64,000 nt of DNA from a bacterium (GTDB lineage Bacteria; Patescibacteriota; Dojkabacteria; GCA-002793355), in assembly GCA_020853235.1 (NCBI GenBank), contig JADYZG010000029.1:62001-126000 (forward strand), written 5' to 3'. Every line of letters begins with the position of its first letter. The first letter of the stretch is position 1. The position numbers were made by a program, and so were the translations under genes. This document shows, one piece after another, positions 31,728 through 42,453 of the stretch. Below the pieces are notes generated by a model. The model did not search any database and was not told the DNA's origin. It saw nothing but the letters and a program-made list of their open reading frames with translations.

Positions 31728-32237
31728 ATGAAAAAACAGACAGGTAACCATACGAAACAGGCGGAATTGGAAGTTCAGGTTCAACAACTTTTAGAAAAAG
31801 TAACTGATTTGGATACAAAACTTCGCACAGCCCTTGCCGATTACCAAAACGTTCGAAAAGAAATTGAAAAACAACAGGAATTACGTGAATCAATGCTGAA
31901 AAAATATGTATTTAATGACTTGATTGACATTTTCTCAGATTTATTTTTCGCAGTTGAACAAATGCCTGAAGAAGCAAAAAAAGATAGCAATATACAGGGT
32001 ATTGTCATGATTATGGCAAAATACAAGGACTTGTTGCGAAATCACGGGGTGACAGAAATCACTTTTAAAGAAGGTGACGATTACGATGCGAGATTCGCTG
32101 AAGTTCTTGGCGTAGTACAGCATGCGACCTTAGATAGCAAAGTTGCGCAAACCATACAACCAGGGTATAGGATCGGCGAGGTACTTATAAAACCTGCACG
32201 AGTTATGATATACAAAAAGCAAATAACTAATTCATAA
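31728..32237 (+). CDS. grpE: GrpE nucleotide exchange factor
   Basis: Coiled-coil N-terminus and GrpE C-terminus (VAQTIQPGYRIGEVLIKPARVMI). Confidence 0.93.
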   Translation: MKKQTGNHTKQAELEVQVQQLLEKVTDLDTKLRTALADYQNVRKEIEKQQELRESMLKKYVFNDLIDIFSDLFFAVEQMPEEAKKDSNIQGIVMIMAKYKDLLRNHGVTEITFKEGDDYDARFAEVLGVVQHATLDSKVAQTIQPGYRIGEVLIKPARVMIYKKQITNS

Positions 32238-32262: not shown

Positions 32263-34173
32263 ATGGGAAAGATTTTAGGAATTGATCTTGGAACAACTAA
32301 CTCCGCAGTTGGAGTTATGAAAGGTGGTTCGCCAACTATAGTTCCGAACCAGCAAGGTTCTAATTTGACGCCATCTGTTGTTGCAGAAGGCAATGATAAA
32401 GAGTCTATTGTTGGTGTTACTGCAAAAAATCAGGCAGTACTTAACCCAGAGAATACAATTTATTCAGTAAAACGACTCATCGGACGACGATGGAAAGACG
32501 AAGAAGTACAACGAGACATAAAACTGTTTCCGTTCGAAATGCGTGAAGACAAGTCCGGCGGTGTAGAAGTGAAAATGAATGATAAGTGGTACAAACCTCA
32601 AGAAATTTCAGCACGAGTACTTCAGAAACTTAAGCAAGATGCCGAAAGTTATTTTGGAGAAAAAGTCACAGAAGCAGTTATTACTGTTCCTGCGTATTTT
32701 GACGACTCGCAACGACAGGCGACCAAAGATGCTGGAAAGATCGCAGGATTGAATGTTCTTCGTATTGTCAACGAACCAACTGCTGCAGCATTGGCCTATG
32801 GATTTGATAAAAAGAAAGATGGAAAAATTGCAGTGTTCGACTTAGGTGGTGGTACGTTTGACGTATCTATTCTCGAAGTAGGTGATGGTGTTTTCGAAGT
32901 TCTTTCGACCAATGGTGATACTCACCTTGGTGGAGATGACTGGGATCAAATGCTTATCGATATGCTTGCAAAAGAATTCAAAGATAAAGAAGGTATCGAC
33001 CTTAAGAGCGATAGTGCAGCTTTGCAACGCTTGAAAGAAGCAGCAGAAAAAGCAAAAATTGAACTTTCGCAGTCACAGGAAACAAACATTAATATTCCTT
33101 ATATTACTGCGACGAAGGAAGGTCCAAAGCACTTAATGCGAAAACTTACTCGATCAGAGCTAGAAAAATTAACAAATCCATTAATCGAAAGAGTTGAGGC
33201 ACCATGCAAAAAGGCTCTTTCTGACGGAAAACTTTCAACATCAGATATTGATGAAGTTATTTTGGTTGGTGGTATGACACGAATGCCAGCAATTCGGGAA
33301 AAAGTCGCAAAAATTTTCGGTAAAGAACCAAAGCAAGATGTTAACCCAGATGAAGTTGTTGCACTTGGTGCAGCAGTTCAAGCAGGTGTTTTGAAGGGCG
33401 AAGTTACTGACATTACCTTGTTAGACGTCACACCATTGTCATTGGGTATTGAAACAATGGGTGGTGTTATGACTGTTCTTATTGCACGAAACACAACAAT
33501 TCCAACGGAGAAAAAGCAAACATTCACGACTGCATCGGATAATCAACCATCGGCAGAAGTGCATGTCTTGCAAGGTGAACGACCAATGGCACCAGACAAT
33601 AAGACACTCGCGCGTTTCGTGCTTGATGGTATCCCACCTGCTCCACGAGGAGTGCCACAGATTGAGATTATGTACAAGATCGACGCAAATGGTATTTTGA
33701 ATGTTACTGCAAAAGATACAGCAACAGGTAAGGAGCAGAAAGTTACAATCACAGCATCAACTGGATTGACTGATGCAGAAGTCACCAAACTTGTTGAAGA
33801 AGCTGAGAAGCACGCAGAAGATGACAAGCAACGAAAAGAAATGGCAGAGATTCGCAATAATGCAGACTCTTTGACCTTTATTGCAGAGAAGACGATGAAC
33901 GACCTTAAAGACAAAGTTACCGAAGATGATAAAAAGTCTATCGAAGACAAAGTTAAGGAAGTTCGTGAATTACTTGCTAAAGATGTCGCCCAGCTCGACA
34001 AAGAAGAGCTTAAAACAAAAGCAGAAGACCTAAGCAAGGCACTGCAAGAAATTGGTGAACGAGCATATAAGGCAAGTGGTGCTTCTCCAGAGCAGTCAGC
34101 AGAATCAACAACCGATGCTTCTACTGCAGAAAATACAGAACAAGGTCCAGTCGAAGGGGAAGTCGTTAAATAA
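32263..34173 (+). CDS. dnaK: Chaperone DnaK
   Basis: [18 protein letters not shown]...[20 protein letters not shown]. Confidence 0.99.
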
Positions 34174-34221
34174 CGACTTCCTGCCTTGGCAGGTGTTATC
34201 ATAAATCTGCTATCATGGAGT

Positions 34222-34452
34222 ATGGGTTTATTGAGCTGGTTTAATTGGAAAAGGAAAATATCCGAACGAGTTGAGGGCACTTTGTCGTATATCCCTGGTA
34301 GTAAGACTCCAAATCAAGACGAACCAATTGTTGTGCAATCTGGACAGTTGGTTAAACGGATGTATGTACAACCAGAAGAACGATCTTTGTTAGAACATTC
34401 AAATATCAGAATCTATACAGGGAATCCTTTTAGGGCAGAAAATCTTTCTTAA
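34222..34452 (+). CDS. Small hypothetical protein
   Basis: 77 aa from ATG 34222 after TATCAT-N5. Confidence 0.45.
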   Translation: MGLLSWFNWKRKISERVEGTLSYIPGSKTPNQDEPIVVQSGQLVKRMYVQPEERSLLEHSNIRIYTGNPFRAENLS

Positions 34453-34780
34453 GAAGTATTGGTTTGTTTCGTATTTACGAGTCTCGCGGAAAAATCGTAT
34501 CCAGCGACCAACACATCATTGGTGATTGGAGTAACGATTATTTCGGTTTTTGGTAAAAGTCCCAGGTTGTTTTGTTTTGCAGAAGCATGAATGGCTGCTT
34601 GTATCGCTAGAAGGGGAGGAAATTGGAAACCAGGAACTTTCTTCCTGTGAGTAGGTAGTAATCATCGAATTCATCAACTCTGAGCATACTTGATTCGTTC
34701 CCTGTAAGAATCTGTAATTTTTTTATAAGAAGATTCGTAAAATTATCAATTGGAAAGAGCTTTAAATATTGTATTTCCAT
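34449..34780 (-). pseudogene. Small protein (about 110 aa) with one frameshift at a CCCC run
   Basis: MEIQYLKLFPIDNFTNLLIKKLQILTGNESSMLRVDEFDDYYLLTGRKFLVSNF + PPLLAIQAAIHASAKQNNLGLLPKTEIIVTPITNDVLVAGYDFSARLVNTKQTNTS in shifted frame; its ATG abuts the previous stop. Confidence 0.55.
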
Positions 34781-35377
34781 TTATAGTGGATTTTTAAATA
34801 ATTTTCCATGACCAGGAATAATCCATTTTGCTCCAGACTCAAGTACTTTTTTACGAGATTCCAAGAGCGCAGCGTGGTCCGACATAAAAGGATCCTTACT
34901 TGCCAGTAATTCCTCAACGGTATTGCTAGTCTGTTTCCCATCTTCCCACCAAAAAACATCTTGTACAATACAGGCCAACCCGAGATTTTCGGTATCGATT
35001 AATAAAGAGAATTGTTCTCCAGCATGGCCAGGCGTTGCGAGAAGTTTAAATTCTGGAATTAGCCAATAATCGGTATAAAAGATTTCTTTATCCTGATCCC
35101 ACTGCATATTTCCGTCATAAATTGGTGTGCTTGGAAAGAGCCGAATATTAAGCACGTGATCAAGATGATAGTGCGTGAGGAAAATTGCGGTAATATCTTC
35201 TACCTTAAGACTGTATTCTGCCATCTTTTCTAGAAGTAATTTCTCATTACAACCTGGATCAATAATATAATTTTTTCCGTTAAATCTAAGTAATGACGTT
35301 GTTGGTGATGCGGTGTAGCTACCGTCTTCGTTTGGATGTGCGTATCCCTCAATAAGAATCGTAAGTGTTGGTTTCAT
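34781..35377 (-). CDS. MBL-fold metallo-hydrolase
   Basis: THYHLDH, TPGHAGE, IPGHGK motifs. Confidence 0.88.
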   Translation of the reverse strand: MKPTLTILIEGYAHPNEDGSYTASPTTSLLRFNGKNYIIDPGCNEKLLLEKMAEYSLKVEDITAIFLTHYHLDHVLNIRLFPSTPIYDGNMQWDQDKEIFYTDYWLIPEFKLLATPGHAGEQFSLLIDTENLGLACIVQDVFWWEDGKQTSNTVEELLASKDPFMSDHAALLESRKKVLESGAKWIIPGHGKLFKNPL

Positions 35378-35384
35378 AGTATTC

Positions 35385-36215
35385 TTATTTAAATAAGATA
35401 GTGTGCGTTATAACGTTATTTTGGCTATATCCGTACTCATAGGCAATGGCAAAAGTGTCAGAATCACGTTGCACAGTAAACGGACTGTACAGGAGTGTTC
35501 CCAATGTATTATCTAGCGCATGGCGAACGAGGATATGAGTATTTTTGCTAATTTTTGGTAGTAATGTAGAGAGTAATTTGTGCTTTGCTTCGTTGGTGTT
35601 TCCTACAGAAGCAAGGAGGTAAATGACATCGTATGATTCTATTCCATCGAGATACTCCAATTCTGAACTTGGAAGCACAGTAATAGTACCGTTTAAGTCT
35701 GAAATTCCCAGTAACTTCTTAGCTAATGTTGTTGATTCTTTGTCGTTATTCAAAGAAGAGATTTTGCAACTTGGAAAATGGTGTAAGATGCCAAACGCTG
35801 TTATGGGTAACGCTCCTGAGCCAACAATCAAAACATTTTCTGGAGATTTGCCTGTGATCCTTACAAGCGATCCTGATTCAATTTGCGCATGGGTAATGTA
35901 AGCATTTCTGTATGAACTTTGCCAATTTTCGAGAGAACCTAGATTACCTTCTAAAATCTCTTCTGCAGACTTTTTCTCCATAAGGTTTTGAACCTGGACA
36001 TATGCTTCTCGAGATTCTTCTATAAACAGAGAAAGCATATTCATAAGTGACGGGATGAGGGCTGAAGGAGTCGTTTTGGTTGTTGTAGCAATGAGTTCGT
36101 AATAATTCGTGAGAGTATTGGCAATTTCTGCAGTAACGTAGGAATTGCTATCACTTAGAATCATTTTCATCGTACCTAGATTCTCGAGGATTTTGGAAAG
36201 AGTTGAGTCTATCAT
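35385..36215 (-). CDS. Nicotianamine synthase-like protein
   Basis: ENVLIVGSGALPITAFGIL...YDVIYLLASVGNTNEAKHKLLSTLLPKI...ILVRHALDNTLGTLLYSPF matches the NAS family layout. Confidence 0.72.
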   Translation of the reverse strand: MIDSTLSKILENLGTMKMILSDSNSYVTAEIANTLTNYYELIATTTKTTPSALIPSLMNMLSLFIEESREAYVQVQNLMEKKSAEEILEGNLGSLENWQSSYRNAYITHAQIESGSLVRITGKSPENVLIVGSGALPITAFGILHHFPSCKISSLNNDKESTTLAKKLLGISDLNGTITVLPSSELEYLDGIESYDVIYLLASVGNTNEAKHKLLSTLLPKISKNTHILVRHALDNTLGTLLYSPFTVQRDSDTFAIAYEYGYSQNNVITHTILFK

Positions 36216-36217
36216 GC

Positions 36218-38047
36218 TTATGCTTCAGGTTGTGGATTCTCTAGTGCCTTAACTAATTTATTGTAAAGCTTTTCAATAAGGTTTATAAGTTCAGGACCGA
36301 CTTCTTCCAAAGGTACACCGTAGTATCTTGCGATTACGTCAATAGTTACTTTGTCTGGTTGCATTGTGTATCCAATACCAAAAGCTAGATCTTTGTTAAA
36401 AGACGGAGCGGTACCTGCAGGTTGTTGATTACCAAGGTTTGAGGTTGTAAAGGTTGGTAAGAGAACATGTTTAATCGCTTGAGAGTTTTGAGCAATCATA
36501 ATACTGTAATGGAAAAGAGTTTTTGCTATAGATTGGAAGTATGCCTTTGGCATTGTTGTGGCTCCAATAAGTAACTCAAGGGGGTCAGTGCCGAGCTTCG
36601 CAATATTTATGAGTAATTTATGTAGTTGACCAAACTTAGTGAGCGCATTATTTACATTAATTGCTTCAGCCATATAATCGATCATGACATTGTCACTATC
36701 CTTAGTCCTAATGTGAGGGAATGCTATCCTTCCCTTAGATCCGCGGGTATCGGTTACTTCGACCATACTGAAGTTAGCAGGGAGTTGACTGGCTTTAACG
36801 TTACAAAGCGTATGTAGAGAATGCAGTAGGAGAAATTGAAATACAGCGTCTTTGCTTATTCCTGCAAGCTCGCTTAATTTTTTAATATTAATGGGAATAT
36901 CTTTTCTAAAATATTGATTGGCTTGCTTTTCCTGTTTTATGATTTTATGGATTTCTTGTTCAGCATTTTGGTCGCTTATCTTCCAACTATGTGATGTATA
37001 TTGAGTATCAATTGTTGGCGTATTGTTTTGATTTTTATCGTAATTCTGGATGTTATTGACGAGTCCTTCGTATACAAATTGTAGCACATGTGCCCCATCA
37101 AATCCTGCGTGGTTGGATACCATGATTCCTTTTCCATTTTTTCTGACCATAAAATTAATCAGCGCATGTGAATAGATGTTGCCAATTGGTCTACCAATTT
37201 CTGCATCTGTCTTTATATCATCAGAGTGATCGAGGTTTACAATAAACGGAGCCTTATTTAGTGCCATCATATATTCTTTATTTTTTTCACGGTTTTTATT
37301 ATGTTTCTGAAATTGAGATGCAGAAACTGCCGTGAGTTCTAGTCCCATTGCCGAGCAAGGGACCTGTTCCCCTTGCTTAATCTTCCTTAAAATCTCGTAG
37401 TAAGTTTTTATAGATTGGCCCTTTGGCAGCACATAAACAATGTTATTGTTAATGACAACAGGACCCCCTGGTTCTCTTTCTTCTAAAATAAATGTAGGAA
37501 TAGTACCTTCGTTTACTCTCTCAACATGGTTGCCAATCATCTTTCGATATGCTCGCATGTCGAGGAATACTCCTTTCGATTCTTCTGGGTCCTTAGTTCT
37601 CCTCATTGTTTCATATTTAAAGTTTTCGTTCTTTAAGTTCAGCGTTCCTTTTGGGATGTTCTCATTAATCCAAGTTTGTTCTTTTTGTGTTGCCCAAAGT
37701 AGTTTTGCTGCTGTATACAGCTGCAGATCAGGGTTTTTGATAACCTCATTCGGTAGTACGAGTTCAGGCAAATCTACTGGAAAGGCAGTTCGGGTAGGAG
37801 GTTCATCTAAAAAATAGCGTTCAATACCTTCGCGTCTGGCACTCCCTTCCGTCGCAGACCGATTAAGGAAGTTGTGGGGGATAGAATATTCAAAAAGTAA
37901 TGCAAGGATCTGGGTTTTCCATATTTCGGTCTTGTCTTTTGTTACTTTTGCGAATTCAATCGCGAGTTGAGCAACATTTCTGACTACTTGTCTATAATCT
38001 AGGTTGGCAGATGTCTGTGAGATTTCTCGATTTTGTTGGCTCAACAT
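36218..38047 (-). CDS. Carnitine/choline O-acyltransferase family protein
   Basis: Catalytic-His region GIMVSNHAGFDGAHVLQFVYEGLV; TDTRGSKGRIAFPHIR; GIGYTMQPDKVTIDVIARYYG. Confidence 0.8.
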   Translation of the reverse strand: MLSQQNREISQTSANLDYRQVVRNVAQLAIEFAKVTKDKTEIWKTQILALLFEYSIPHNFLNRSATEGSARREGIERYFLDEPPTRTAFPVDLPELVLPNEVIKNPDLQLYTAAKLLWATQKEQTWINENIPKGTLNLKNENFKYETMRRTKDPEESKGVFLDMRAYRKMIGNHVERVNEGTIPTFILEEREPGGPVVINNNIVYVLPKGQSIKTYYEILRKIKQGEQVPCSAMGLELTAVSASQFQKHNKNREKNKEYMMALNKAPFIVNLDHSDDIKTDAEIGRPIGNIYSHALINFMVRKNGKGIMVSNHAGFDGAHVLQFVYEGLVNNIQNYDKNQNNTPTIDTQYTSHSWKISDQNAEQEIHKIIKQEKQANQYFRKDIPINIKKLSELAGISKDAVFQFLLLHSLHTLCNVKASQLPANFSMVEVTDTRGSKGRIAFPHIRTKDSDNVMIDYMAEAINVNNALTKFGQLHKLLINIAKLGTDPLELLIGATTMPKAYFQSIAKTLFHYSIMIAQNSQAIKHVLLPTFTTSNLGNQQPAGTAPSFNKDLAFGIGYTMQPDKVTIDVIARYYGVPLEEVGPELINLIEKLYNKLVKALENPQPEA

Positions 38048-38126: not shown

Positions 38127-38216
38127 TGGCGGAGGGGGAGAGATTCGAACTCACGGTAGGGAAAACCCTACATTAGTTTTCAAGACTAACGCCATCAACC
38201 ACTCGGCCACCCCTCC
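38127..38216 (-). tRNA. tRNA-Ser (TGA), with encoded CCA
   Basis: Class II tRNA with long variable arm; anticodon loop CTTGAAA; 3' GCCA. Confidence 0.93.
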
Positions 38217-38272: not shown

Positions 38273-39118
38273 TTAGTTTTCTCTAGAGACTTTGATTTCG
38301 CCTGAAGTTCCTAAAAGACTGAATAAAGTAAACTTTTTTACACCTGTAGAAAGTACTTTTCCTGAAGAAACACAGAGGGCATCAATTATCACAGAGTCAG
38401 AATTCTTTGCTTCAAAATATGCTGAATAATCGGAGGTTCTGATTTTATTGAGCGAGAAAGACCAATTTGCTGTGGTGGTAACGACGGTTGCATAAGCAGA
38501 ACTTTCTTCGCCTCGAGAGAGCACCACACGGACAATACATGTACCGTTTGCATCTTTGATAACGCCTGAAATGTTCTTTTCCGGTGCCTTGTTTGCAGGT
38601 AACGATACTGGTGTTGTAAATGAGTCGACAATTGGGGCGTGACCCGTGTAATAGTAGAGTGTATTCGCAGATAACTGATCTATCGTTGCCTCGTGAAGAT
38701 AAACGGCCTCTGTATTTACAGAAGTTCTGGTCAGTCTATTTTCAGCAGTTCCAAATTTTAAGTTGGTTTGTTGGGGAGCTTCTGTAATCCATAATATATT
38801 TACAGAGTTAGAAGAAAGGTTACTAATAATTCCTTTGCTGGTGAGTTCTGTATACAGATACGAATGCTCCTTTTGATTATCGACACTACCAAGAACCTTT
38901 AAGGGAACATCTTGGTTTCTTGCGCGTAAAAGTGTAGGTTCTGTTGTAGGTGTTGGTACTGGCAATTCCGTGACAATTGGAGTGGTTATAATTGTTGCTG
39001 CTTGAGATTTTTGGGTGGTTAGATCACGCTTGCTCGAGAGAAGTGTAAAGCCGATAACTAAAACTAAAAGTAAGCCTGAAACTGTTGCAATGGTGTAGAT
39101 CTTTGATTTAAAGTTCAT
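38273..39118 (-). CDS. Exported protein with fibronectin-like segment
   Basis: N-terminal TM, Pro/Thr linker, KVLGSV motif. Confidence 0.6.
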   Translation of the reverse strand: MNFKSKIYTIATVSGLLLVLVIGFTLLSSKRDLTTQKSQAATIITTPIVTELPVPTPTTEPTLLRARNQDVPLKVLGSVDNQKEHSYLYTELTSKGIISNLSSNSVNILWITEAPQQTNLKFGTAENRLTRTSVNTEAVYLHEATIDQLSANTLYYYTGHAPIVDSFTTPVSLPANKAPEKNISGVIKDANGTCIVRVVLSRGEESSAYATVVTTTANWSFSLNKIRTSDYSAYFEAKNSDSVIIDALCVSSGKVLSTGVKKFTLFSLLGTSGEIKVSREN

Positions 39119-41016
39119 TCACTTCCTTGTTCAAAAACTAACGCTCCTTCTGAAATTTCTTCTTCGGAGAACTCGGTTTGAAGTGCCTTCATTTTTGCTA
39201 ATTCTTTCGGATTTGATGTAATTAGTCGATGCTCTGCACGACTTGCAATAATTGATACCCCGACGTGGCTACGACCGGCAAAAAAGAGCCCCTCACCTGT
39301 TTTTGCACTCAACACAAATGATTTTTCTCCGGATGAAAGGTTAAAGGTTTTTACAATCAAATCAACGGCAGCAGGGCTCTGTTTCAGGAGTAGCGACAGG
39401 CTGGAGTTTGTAACGACTGCTTTTCCATATTTCGAAGTTAAAAATTCATCAACATCTTGGCTGATTGTCGTTAATCCGAGGTAATACTTTCGCCCTCGTT
39501 TTGCGATACCGTAAATAAATCGAGCTGAGTCTTCGAATTGCATCATGGTCCAGGCTTCATCCACGACTAAAATTCTTGGGCGAATATCTTCACGAACACG
39601 GGTCCAGATGAAATCAAGAATCATATACATCGCGATTGGTCGTAGGTCATCTTGTAAGTCACGGATACTAAACACGGTGAACTTATTCTTGATATCAATG
39701 TTTGTTTCTTGATTGAAAACCCCTGCTGCGCTTCCAAAAACGTACTTTTCAAGTCGACCAGATAGTGCTCGAGCTTCTGGTTCTGCCATACCCTTAAGTA
39801 TCTTGTATAGGTCCTCAAGAAGTGGTGGTTTGTTATTCCAGGTTTCTGGGTCGTTGTTAATGCCTTTTTCGTTATAAGTCAGAATAAACGCCCGATCAAG
39901 GATTGAGATTTCGACATTTGATAGTTCCCCAAGCAAAAGTTTAATGAAGGAGTGCAAACTCAACACTTTATCCCGTAGGACATTCTTGGTGCCATCTTTT
40001 GAAGCTTTCAAAAATTCAAATGGATTAACTTTTGCACCTTCGTCTTGCGTGAACGTAATGTATTCACCATCAACCGATTTTGCGAGTTTTTCGTACTCAT
40101 TCTCGGGATCGATAATCATAACCTGAACACCAGTTAACAAGTATCGCAGAGCTTCAAGTTTAACGAAATACGATTTACCAGCACCAGAGGTTGCGAAAAC
40201 CACTTCATTTAAGTTAGGCATACTAAATCGGTCGAAAATAACCATACTGTTGTTGTGCATATTAACGCCATAAAGAATGCCACGATCCATGGTAAGGTCC
40301 GAAGTTACAAAGGGGAACGTCATTGCAATTGAAGTGGTATCCATATTCCTGACGCGGTAAATTCTATCAAGTGCCAAGGGTAGCGTTGTATCAAGCCCTT
40401 CATCCATTTTGAGCGTTAATGGAACACACGAGAGCCCAATGGCTTTGAGAGTAGAAACGATATTTTTCGAGATATTTTCGAGTGTTTTGGGGTCATCTGC
40501 ATTTAACCTGATATACATACTCATGTTAAAGAATTTTTCTTTTCCAGAGGCTACATTATCGATTAGTTCTTGTGCGTCTTGGTATGCTACTTTACTTTTT
40601 GGATCAAGAATGAGTCCTTTGGATTGTTGAGTCGATAAAGTCGCTTCTAGCTCAGCAATTTTCTTTTTTAATTTATCAATAACTTCATCAGAATCAACGA
40701 TATAATAGAATGTGCTAATTGCAAGAGAGGTTTCAAAGTTAACGAGCGGAGATAGCCAAGTTGAACGTACAACACGCGGAAAATCAGTAATCATTAGCAT
40801 TTTGTAGTACCTTTTGTTAACCTGGACGTGGTTGAAGTCGATTTCGTAGTACTGTGGTGCGAGTAAATCTTGGATGGTGTATTCGGGGCTTTGGCTTGAC
40901 GATTCTTGGGTTACCTTTTGCAAGTTTTGCGTTTGAATAGCTGCTGACATAGTTGGGTCACCAGGAGGGGCTGGCTTCTTAAAAATGTTTTTTATTGCAT
41001 CAAGTGGTGACGGCAT
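39115..41016 (-). CDS. VirB4-like type IV secretion ATPase
   Basis: ATSGAGKSYFVKLEALRYLL Walker A; ILVVDEAWTMMQ Walker B. Confidence 0.9.
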   Translation of the reverse strand: MPSPLDAIKNIFKKPAPPGDPTMSAAIQTQNLQKVTQESSSQSPEYTIQDLLAPQYYEIDFNHVQVNKRYYKMLMITDFPRVVRSTWLSPLVNFETSLAISTFYYIVDSDEVIDKLKKKIAELEATLSTQQSKGLILDPKSKVAYQDAQELIDNVASGKEKFFNMSMYIRLNADDPKTLENISKNIVSTLKAIGLSCVPLTLKMDEGLDTTLPLALDRIYRVRNMDTTSIAMTFPFVTSDLTMDRGILYGVNMHNNSMVIFDRFSMPNLNEVVFATSGAGKSYFVKLEALRYLLTGVQVMIIDPENEYEKLAKSVDGEYITFTQDEGAKVNPFEFLKASKDGTKNVLRDKVLSLHSFIKLLLGELSNVEISILDRAFILTYNEKGINNDPETWNNKPPLLEDLYKILKGMAEPEARALSGRLEKYVFGSAAGVFNQETNIDIKNKFTVFSIRDLQDDLRPIAMYMILDFIWTRVREDIRPRILVVDEAWTMMQFEDSARFIYGIAKRGRKYYLGLTTISQDVDEFLTSKYGKAVVTNSSLSLLLKQSPAAVDLIVKTFNLSSGEKSFVLSAKTGEGLFFAGRSHVGVSIIASRAEHRLITSNPKELAKMKALQTEFSEEEISEGALVFEQGSE

Positions 41017-41018
41017 GG

Positions 41019-41648
41019 TTAGACATAAATTTGAGGTAAGTTTTCTAGTTCGATGGTTGAGGCAGGATTATAAATCGAGTAAAAATATTTCACAATTTCT
41101 GAGGTCGTCATTTGTTCTCCATCCAACCCCATTCCTTTGAGCATTTTTATTATGTGATACTTCTTAGGGTACAGGTAATTTGCCGAGTTTTCTACCATTT
41201 GTAGTTTCTGCTCTGTAGTTGTATTTTTGTCAATTGGTTGCATTGTTCGGTATGGAATAACGATCATGAATCTTTTGTCAAGGATTTCTTTGTTTGTGAT
41301 TAGATTGCGGATGAAATGTTTATAAATGGAAAACTGTCGTTTTAATCCAGGACTTAAATCGGGGGTATCAAGTGTATCCAGGTAATCAGAATATTTGCTA
41401 ATGTTTATTTTCTTTGTCTCTATAAGCACCTGCAATTGAAAATCCAACGAGTTGACCATAGAACCAAAAGACATAATTTTTACATCTTGCTCATCTTCAG
41501 ATAACAGATCAAAGTTTACTGAAGAAGTTTTAACAATAAGACATACGGTCCCGTCCCTTGTGAGCAGCAGGTCGCTAATGACGTCAACTACCTGTAATAG
41601 ATCTTGGCTAGCGTGTGATATTGGGCTTTGTCCTGGTCCAGTTGCCAT
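41019..41648 (-). CDS. Hypothetical protein in the VirB4/PrgI operon
   Basis: 209 aa ORF tightly coupled to both neighbours. Confidence 0.65.
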   Translation of the reverse strand: MATGPGQSPISHASQDLLQVVDVISDLLLTRDGTVCLIVKTSSVNFDLLSEDEQDVKIMSFGSMVNSLDFQLQVLIETKKINISKYSDYLDTLDTPDLSPGLKRQFSIYKHFIRNLITNKEILDKRFMIVIPYRTMQPIDKNTTTEQKLQMVENSANYLYPKKYHIIKMLKGMGLDGEQMTTSEIVKYFYSIYNPASTIELENLPQIYV

Positions 41649-41649
41649 A

Positions 41650-42453
41650 TTATGCGATTGACGAAATATTAAGTAACGGATATGTATTACCTTGAAATGT
41701 AATTTTTACTTTTGGAATTGAAATGGCATCAGGAGATTGGAAATCAATTTCATATGCACCCTCTTTGAAACTTTGATTAAAGTAAATGATACCATCTTTG
41801 TTTGAACGAAGTGCAGTAACGACAGTTTGTGTTTGGTCTTTTACGTAAGCAACGACACCTTCAAGCGGCAATCCATCTTCTTGGAGTCTGAAGGCTACTG
41901 TGTTTGGGATTGCGGGAAGGGTAACACCGGCTTCTGCAAAATCAGCAGTATTATCGGGAGAAATCGAAAGTGTTTGTTGAATTTGTGGTGTAATAACTTC
42001 TTGTACAGTTGTGACAGCACCTACAGTTTGTTGTGGTAATTTTTGGCCATTTAGAGCTTTCTTAAATTCATCATGGGTCATAAAATAAGCAGCCAAATAG
42101 GTAGGTAATTTTTGTGGTTTGGTTGTGAAGAAGTTGTCTGCTTTTACAGCTTTTGCATCTTTTTTCCAAACACGACGGAGAACAAGAGTATTTGCTCGCG
42201 CGAAAGATGTGAACCAATCTTCCATGGTTCTTCTTTGATAGACACCTAGCCCAAGAGTGATGCCAACCAAGAGAATTACGGGAATCGTTAACCACGCAAA
42301 AAAAGCAGGGAATACACCAGCTCTGTTAAGTTGGTATAATCCAAATGAAAGTCCCCCTGCACTTGCGACATAGATAAATTGTTTGAGCGTAAGCCCCGCA
42401 AAGAGCTTGAACTCATACTCCATGATGTTTTGTGGAATTGCGTGTTCATACAT
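41650..42453 (-). CDS. PrgI-family membrane protein
   Basis: YEHAIPQNIMEYEFKLFAGLTLKQFIYV, two TM helices. Confidence 0.8.
   Translation of the reverse strand: MYEHAIPQNIMEYEFKLFAGLTLKQFIYVASAGGLSFGLYQLNRAGVFPAFFAWLTIPVILLVGITLGLGVYQRRTMEDWFTSFARANTLVLRRVWKKDAKAVKADNFFTTKPQKLPTYLAAYFMTHDEFKKALNGQKLPQQTVGAVTTVQEVITPQIQQTLSISPDNTADFAEAGVTLPAIPNTVAFRLQEDGLPLEGVVAYVKDQTQTVVTALRSNKDGIIYFNQSFKEGAYEIDFQSPDAISIPKVKITFQGNTYPLLNISSIA

Follow-up and report, generated by a model that had tools for sequence, protein, structure and literature searches.

Most of what is known of carnitine/choline acyltransferases comes from eukaryotes, and some fungal polyketide synthases carry carnitine-acyltransferase (cAT) release domains. 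A second family, the nicotianamine synthases (NAS), has been characterized in other organisms. In the Methanothermobacter enzyme (MtNAS), E81 and Y107 have been described as the catalytic pair (PMC10491745), and the equivalent residues of AtNAS1, E77 and Y106, are essential (PMC10248798). Here we analysed a 64,000-nucleotide stretch (the window) of contig JADYZG010000029.1 from a bacterium of the Dojkabacteria (Patescibacteriota), in which a gene of the carnitine/choline acyltransferase family stands directly before a gene of the NAS family. Both enzyme families are known already, while their pairing in such a host is new in the literature that was searched, where no description of the pairing, its host or its cofactor situation was found. 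We tentatively favour, as a possible rather than a probable explanation, that the two genes form a lineage-specific cassette which makes or remodels an acylated amino acid derived from S-adenosylmethionine (SAM), using cofactors from outside the cell.

The 609-residue acyltransferase-like protein matched PF00755 with 50.5 bits (cut-off 22.3, E = 1.7e-13), residues 143-572 being aligned with positions 114-555 of the 574-position profile. The same family was above its cut-off in a profile search of the whole genome. The motif NHAGFDG, in which the earlier note had recognized the catalytic-His layout of carnitine/choline acyltransferases, contains the catalytic-type pair H313/D317, conserved by sequence. 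It aligns with EHAAAEG, EHSPFDG and EHSWGDG, and its His and acidic residue are matched to those of CrAT and ChAT. A comparison of mouse CrAT and ChAT and of CPT2 with the single acyltransferase using hhalign gave an E value of 6.9e-5 and a probability of 63%, again with the His and the acid aligned; of the three segments, those of CrAT and ChAT agreed with PDB chains. We regard the Pfam match as the stronger evidence for the predicted family assignment. Identity to the animal enzymes was about 16-23% in the alignments, and phmmer returned no match between the protein and the PDB enzymes of its family. AlphaFold2 run without an alignment gave a mean predicted local distance difference test score (pLDDT) of 32.6 and a predicted template modelling score (pTM) of 0.20, too low to show the two-domain fold of carnitine acyltransferases.

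Outside the catalytic motif the protein departs from its family. The sequence TTSN (534-537) stands in place of the family STSQ/STST, and its placement varies between alignments. At the coenzyme A (CoA)-binding GKxFxK stretch, a gap adjoins in all alignments, with KK at 389-390 as the sole residues at that place. This strong divergence, with CoA and substrate motifs partly lost, would suit a protein that is a relic or has been repurposed and transfers no acyl group, so that only the NAS-like enzyme matters; the failure to detect CoA synthesis in the genome points the same way. However, the 609-codon frame is full-length and free of stops, the His-Asp pair is kept and the profile match covers nearly the whole domain. 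We consider a relic unlikely.

The 276-residue NAS-like protein matched PF03059 with 63.3 bits (cut-off 27.1, E = 3e-17), and the NAS-type motif layout proposed earlier was confirmed. The SAM-binding-type motif GSGALPIT is located at 132-139. E80 and Y106 correspond to E81 and Y107 of MtNAS with an identical Glu-Tyr spacing of 26 residues, and the same spacing was found in two further NAS-like proteins of the phylum. A NAS profile built from proteins of the phylum matched the Methanothermobacter NAS structures 3fpe and 3fpf (E = 1.7e-28) with the Glu column aligned, and also matched CntL. In chains 3fpg and 3o31, which are taken to be E81Q variants of MtNAS, the aligned glutamate is Q. Judged by these alignments, the NAS-like protein bears the catalytic residues of aminocarboxypropyl transferases. 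Its identity to the other NAS-like proteins of the phylum is about 20-23%. For the acyltransferase and NAS-like proteins, AlphaFold2 without an alignment gave pLDDT values of 33 and 40, which are uninformative on the fold.

Both reactions would need cofactors that the organism does not appear to make. Dephospho-CoA kinase (CoaE), acyl carrier protein (ACP) and SAM synthetase (MetK, bacterial or archaeal) were undetected in all 8 genomes of the order, and the control genomes behaved as expected. The genome encodes an RsmH/MraW SAM-dependent methyltransferase (E = 1.7e-58); in a cell with no detectable MetK, SAM would have to enter from outside. These absences indicate that SAM and acyl-CoA, or another thioester, are probably imported, and they give some support to the scavenging pathway that had been offered as one possibility for the locus. 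The genome size is 0.84 Mb (845 kb searched), and the organism is probably host-dependent with a reduced genome. This size, the missing cofactor genes and the gene content also point to the Patescibacteria (CPR). No open reading frame (ORF) of the genome matched the acyl-CoA synthetase or PlsC patterns, which were PROSITE-like regular expressions of low sensitivity.

The pair lies in a variable interval between a tRNA-Ser gene and dnaK (Table 1). Both flanks of this interval are kept in two genomes of the same genus, G002 and G003, with the tRNA-Ser, a 281-residue protein gene and the operon with the VirB4-like gene on one side and dnaK, grpE and a small gene on the other. The tRNA-Ser stands at the same edge in both genomes, and dnaK, also at the same edge, is 92% identical in G002 and 89% identical in G003. 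Because both flanks are syntenic in these two genomes, we conclude that the contig is native; contamination or misbinning was ruled out by this synteny together with equal G+C. Neither the acyltransferase nor the NAS-like gene is present in the syntenic interval of G002 or G003. In G002 the interval contains an alpha/beta hydrolase, a histidine phosphatase, a HAD hydrolase, an ortholog of the MBL gene described below and a small gene, and in G003 it contains other genes and a HAD hydrolase. A HAD relative (42%) is encoded elsewhere in the genome of the window, on a different contig. From the comparison of these intervals, the acyltransferase-NAS pair is specific to its lineage within the variable interval. 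The acyltransferase was not found in any of the 7 relatives of the same order, so that gain of the pair, possibly by transfer, is favoured over repeated loss, without certainty. An integration scar was looked for and rejected, as no repeat of at least 12 nt of the tRNA-Ser 3′ end occurs elsewhere in the window. No specific match to defence or phage families was obtained.

Table 1. Position and state of the features in and around the variable interval of the window.
Feature	Position	Strand	Remarks
Carnitine/choline-acyltransferase-family gene	36218..38047	-	609 codons, intact; PF00755 match
Nicotianamine-synthase (NAS)-family gene	35385..36215	-	276 codons, intact; PF03059 match
Metallo-beta-lactamase (MBL)-fold hydrolase gene	34781..35377	-	198 codons, intact; PF00753 match
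Small fourth ORF with a change of frame inside it	34449..34780	-	57 codons (34607-34780); beyond them another frame is open to 34449
tRNA-Ser(tga)	38127..38216	-	ARAGORN; conserved edge of the variable interval
dnaK	32263..34173	+	Other conserved edge of the variable interval
grpE	31728-32237		Beside dnaK
Small gene	34186-34452		Beside dnaK, part of the conserved edge
Operon with VirB4-like ATPase	38273-42453		Beyond tRNA-Ser(tga); conserved, with synteny in G002 and G003

The acyltransferase, NAS-like and metallo-beta-lactamase (MBL)-fold genes are arranged head to tail on one strand, separated by 2 nt (acyltransferase/NAS) and 7 nt (NAS/MBL), and the tRNA-Ser lies 79 nt upstream of the acyltransferase start. 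The earlier note had read four consecutive ORFs here. Three of them stand, whereas the fourth is open for 57 codons only and the stretch down to 34449 lies in another frame: a straight translation of 34449-34778 contains 5 stops. No Pfam or NCBIfam family matched the 57-codon part. The frame change, at 34607-34660, may mean that a small gene is broken or frame-shifted, or may be an error of the assembly. Orthology with the small genes that follow the MBL or HAD genes in G002 and G003 looked plausible by eye but was not supported, the phmmer similarity being non-significant (E = 0.2-0.4).

The 198-residue MBL protein, correctly named as an MBL hydrolase in the earlier note, matched PF00753 with 57.2 bits (cut-off 22.7, E = 2.8e-15) and carries the metal-binding motif HYHLDH at 69-74. 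An ortholog of 67% identity occurs in G002, which does not have the acyltransferase-NAS pair, and the MBL gene is accordingly seen, on sequence comparison, as a resident gene of the genus. In G002 (L017:8658-10779) this ortholog comes after the histidine phosphatase and HAD hydrolase genes. The MBL gene of the window is probably co-transcribed with the pair; as its ortholog occurs without the pair, a role as dedicated pathway enzyme was rejected as the primary reading.

The MBL protein also bears on a further explanation, an AHL-like or acyl-azetidine route (AHL, acyl-homoserine lactone). Here SAM would be cyclised by the NAS-like enzyme, with no external amine taking part, the acyltransferase would add an acyl group to the cyclic product, and the MBL protein, which resembles AHL lactonases, would degrade the compound. 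SAM can be cyclised to azetidine-2-carboxylic acid (AZE) or homoserine lactone, as has been described (PMC10491745). Homologues of AZE synthases have been reported in Patescibacteria, and a role of these SAM-derived azetidine enzymes in host adaptation was suggested by the authors (PMC11794875). The MBL protein did score to AHL lactonases, with 36.4 bits to the AiiA model and E values of 2e-5 to 8e-5 to AiiA structures. However, the model score is far under the cut-off of 375, TM0894 and MBLAC1 match better, and G002 keeps the MBL gene without the pair. The AzeJ signature motifs PFNxxGN and RxxYYxxC (motifs from PMC11794875) are absent from the NAS-like protein. An AHL-like or AZE product is possible chemistry without specific support, and we consider this route quite improbable.

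The distribution of the two families was then compared across genomes. Of 384 genomes from across the phylum, 1 contained PF00755, as did none of 337 genomes of another class, and the acyltransferase protein itself occurred in 1 of 89 genomes of its own class; the three samples overlap. The family was absent in all 14 control genomes, and the window's own genome was the sole positive control for these PF00755 searches. PF03059 was found in 5 of the 384 genomes. The PF00755 search was negative in all 4 other NAS-bearing genomes, and in the three of these 4 NAS-like loci that were read, no acyltransferase occurs within 18-19 kb. One of the other NAS-like genes (G279, L007:3516-9604) stands beside two CobW-type GTPase genes, a Fur-like regulator and a permease, named by eye, and its locus looks like a metal-limitation operon, perhaps for zinc. 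In another genome (G175, L009:8653-10489) only a few bases separate the NAS-like gene from a downstream ATP-grasp gene of D-Ala-D-Ala-ligase-like type (PF07478, E = 6.7e-46), possibly a different two-enzyme pairing. A viral contig of IMG/VR (L024:1-1887) encodes a 628-residue protein with the NAS-type motif VGSGALPLT, next to lysozyme-like and phage-like genes.

No relative of the acyltransferase was found in the phage, plasmid and viral-contig collections, where scans by pattern have little sensitivity when a single divergent protein is all there is to start from. Pattern scans of GTDB contigs with the single protein and with a concatenated alignment, the second running on acyltransferase patterns and not on the NAS motif, gave no match either and are weak scans. 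The window NAS-like protein had no tblastn match in plasmids and phages, and animal CrAT had none in plasmids.

If the two genes act as one unit, the following course may be proposed. The cassette sits in the interval between tRNA-Ser and dnaK, directly upstream of the resident MBL gene. In the NAS-like enzyme, with E80/Y106 as base, an amine nucleophile would displace methylthioadenosine (MTA) from imported SAM, and an amino acid or amine would thus gain an aminocarboxypropyl group. Through H313/D317, the acyltransferase-like enzyme would move an acyl group between a thioester, such as acyl-CoA from the host, and the NAS product, at a hydroxyl or amine. The outcome would be an aminocarboxypropyl metabolite bearing an acyl group, which cofactors from outside would serve to make or remodel. 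The 2-nt gap and the joint absence from the intervals of the sister genomes make it more natural that the pair was acquired together as a unit. The report of SAM-derived azetidine enzymes in Patescibacteria, with their suggested part in host adaptation (PMC11794875), also fits a cassette. The single small-molecule pathway of the earlier note draws on this gap and joint absence, in one genome; a conserved neighbourhood, whose lack the note had named as refuting, was not found as far as the searches went.

Several results weigh against such a cassette. No second genome with adjacent acyltransferase and NAS genes was found in the searched collections, and with the pair present in one genome only, the conserved co-occurrence looked for in related genomes is not supported. 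The G+C and codon use of the pair are the same as those of its surroundings, and give no support for recent transfer. No sigma-70-like site was found between the tRNA-Ser and the acyltransferase start. In the acyltransferase, the lysines of GKxFxK and the substrate motifs TYES/STSQ can be recognised only in part; with this divergence the acyl donor may not be CoA, and the catalytic type predicted from the His-Asp pair is surer than the donor.

The same evidence can be read as two independent neighbours, the NAS-like protein making a free metal chelator alone and the acyltransferase separately handling acyl groups of the host, for instance as carnitine or choline esters or in the acylation of scavenged lysolipids. 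The filling of the same interval by unrelated gene sets in the sister genomes, the occurrence of other NAS-like genes of the phylum without an acyltransferase and the lack of a second genome with the pair all agree with independence. Patescibacteria are without lipid synthesis and may use lysolipids of their neighbours, according to a review (PMC11665869). The 2-nt gap and the joint presence of the genes where the sister genomes have neither speak against independence. Since adjacency and joint absence are the sole links between the two genes, we give independent enzymes the same weight as the cassette, so that each is a serious possibility and neither is probable.

A metallophore of the staphylopine or pseudopaline (opine) type, made by the NAS-like enzyme with the other genes serving in its assembly, was also considered, the earlier note having named a metallophore of staphylopine kind. 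In favour of it, the protein shows a weak similarity to CntL in the NCBIfam equivalog model (18.9 bits), and plasmid NAS-like genes of other bacteria are often beside genes for opine dehydrogenase, racemase and metal ABC transporters: opine dehydrogenase accompanies them in Paenibacillus, Priestia and Vibrio, and racemase in Priestia and Bacillus. A distant family-5-type (nickel/peptide) solute-binding protein, 24% identical to a nikA-annotated protein, is encoded on another contig of the genome (C26, L078:17088-18800); a permease partner for it was not found. Against it, the CntL score is far under the cut-off of 350, and no opine dehydrogenase, DapF-type or histidine racemase, or matching permease was found by tblastn and phmmer in the 845 kb, from which NAS was recovered as positive control. 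Without these two enzymes, opine dehydrogenase and histidine racemase, a metallophore of staphylopine type is hard to account for. No acyltransferase of this kind is known from the described opine metallophore pathways. We rate this explanation as very improbable, and the genome search contradicts it.

The cassette explanation would have a wider consequence if both enzymes act in sequence, as it would mean a new class of small molecules in a group of which very few metabolites are known. The window acyltransferase stands in a single genome of a phylum mostly without CoA and lipid synthesis, and the locus suggests, as a concrete example, that an ultrasmall bacterium may carry out specialised chemistry with cofactors that it borrows. 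The strongest form of this idea is a two-enzyme pathway, not described before, in a reduced bacterium that depends on a host. SAM and acyl-CoA from the host would be the whole source of an acylated aminocarboxypropyl amino acid, which would serve as a chelator, a signal or a metabolite for interaction with the host. We hold this form as a doubtful one.

Compared with known systems, the locus shares a NAS-like aminobutanoyltransferase with the staphylopine-type loci (CntKLM), but its genome is without racemase, opine dehydrogenase and dedicated transporter and the CntL cut-off is missed. Like the AZE synthases AzeJ and VioH, which are reported in Patescibacteria too (PMC11794875), the NAS-like protein would be a SAM-consuming small-molecule enzyme in a reduced symbiotic bacterium; unlike them it belongs to PF03059, and the AzeJ motifs are absent. 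With the cAT domains of fungal polyketide synthases the acyltransferase would have in common the use of a carnitine-acyltransferase-type domain in small-molecule biosynthesis, but it is a stand-alone protein in a genome with no detectable ACP. With CrAT, ChAT, CPT2 and CrOT it shares a near full-length match to the PF00755 profile, a catalytic His with the ChAT-type Asp and a similar C-terminal FGIGY region, and it differs from them in its identity of about 16-23%, in TTSN for STSQ and in the poorly kept GKxFxK and TYES motifs. The NAS-like protein resembles MtNAS and the other PF03059 enzymes in its family match, in the GSGxLPxT motif and in a Glu/Tyr pair of identical spacing, and differs from them in that its gene adjoins that of an acyltransferase.

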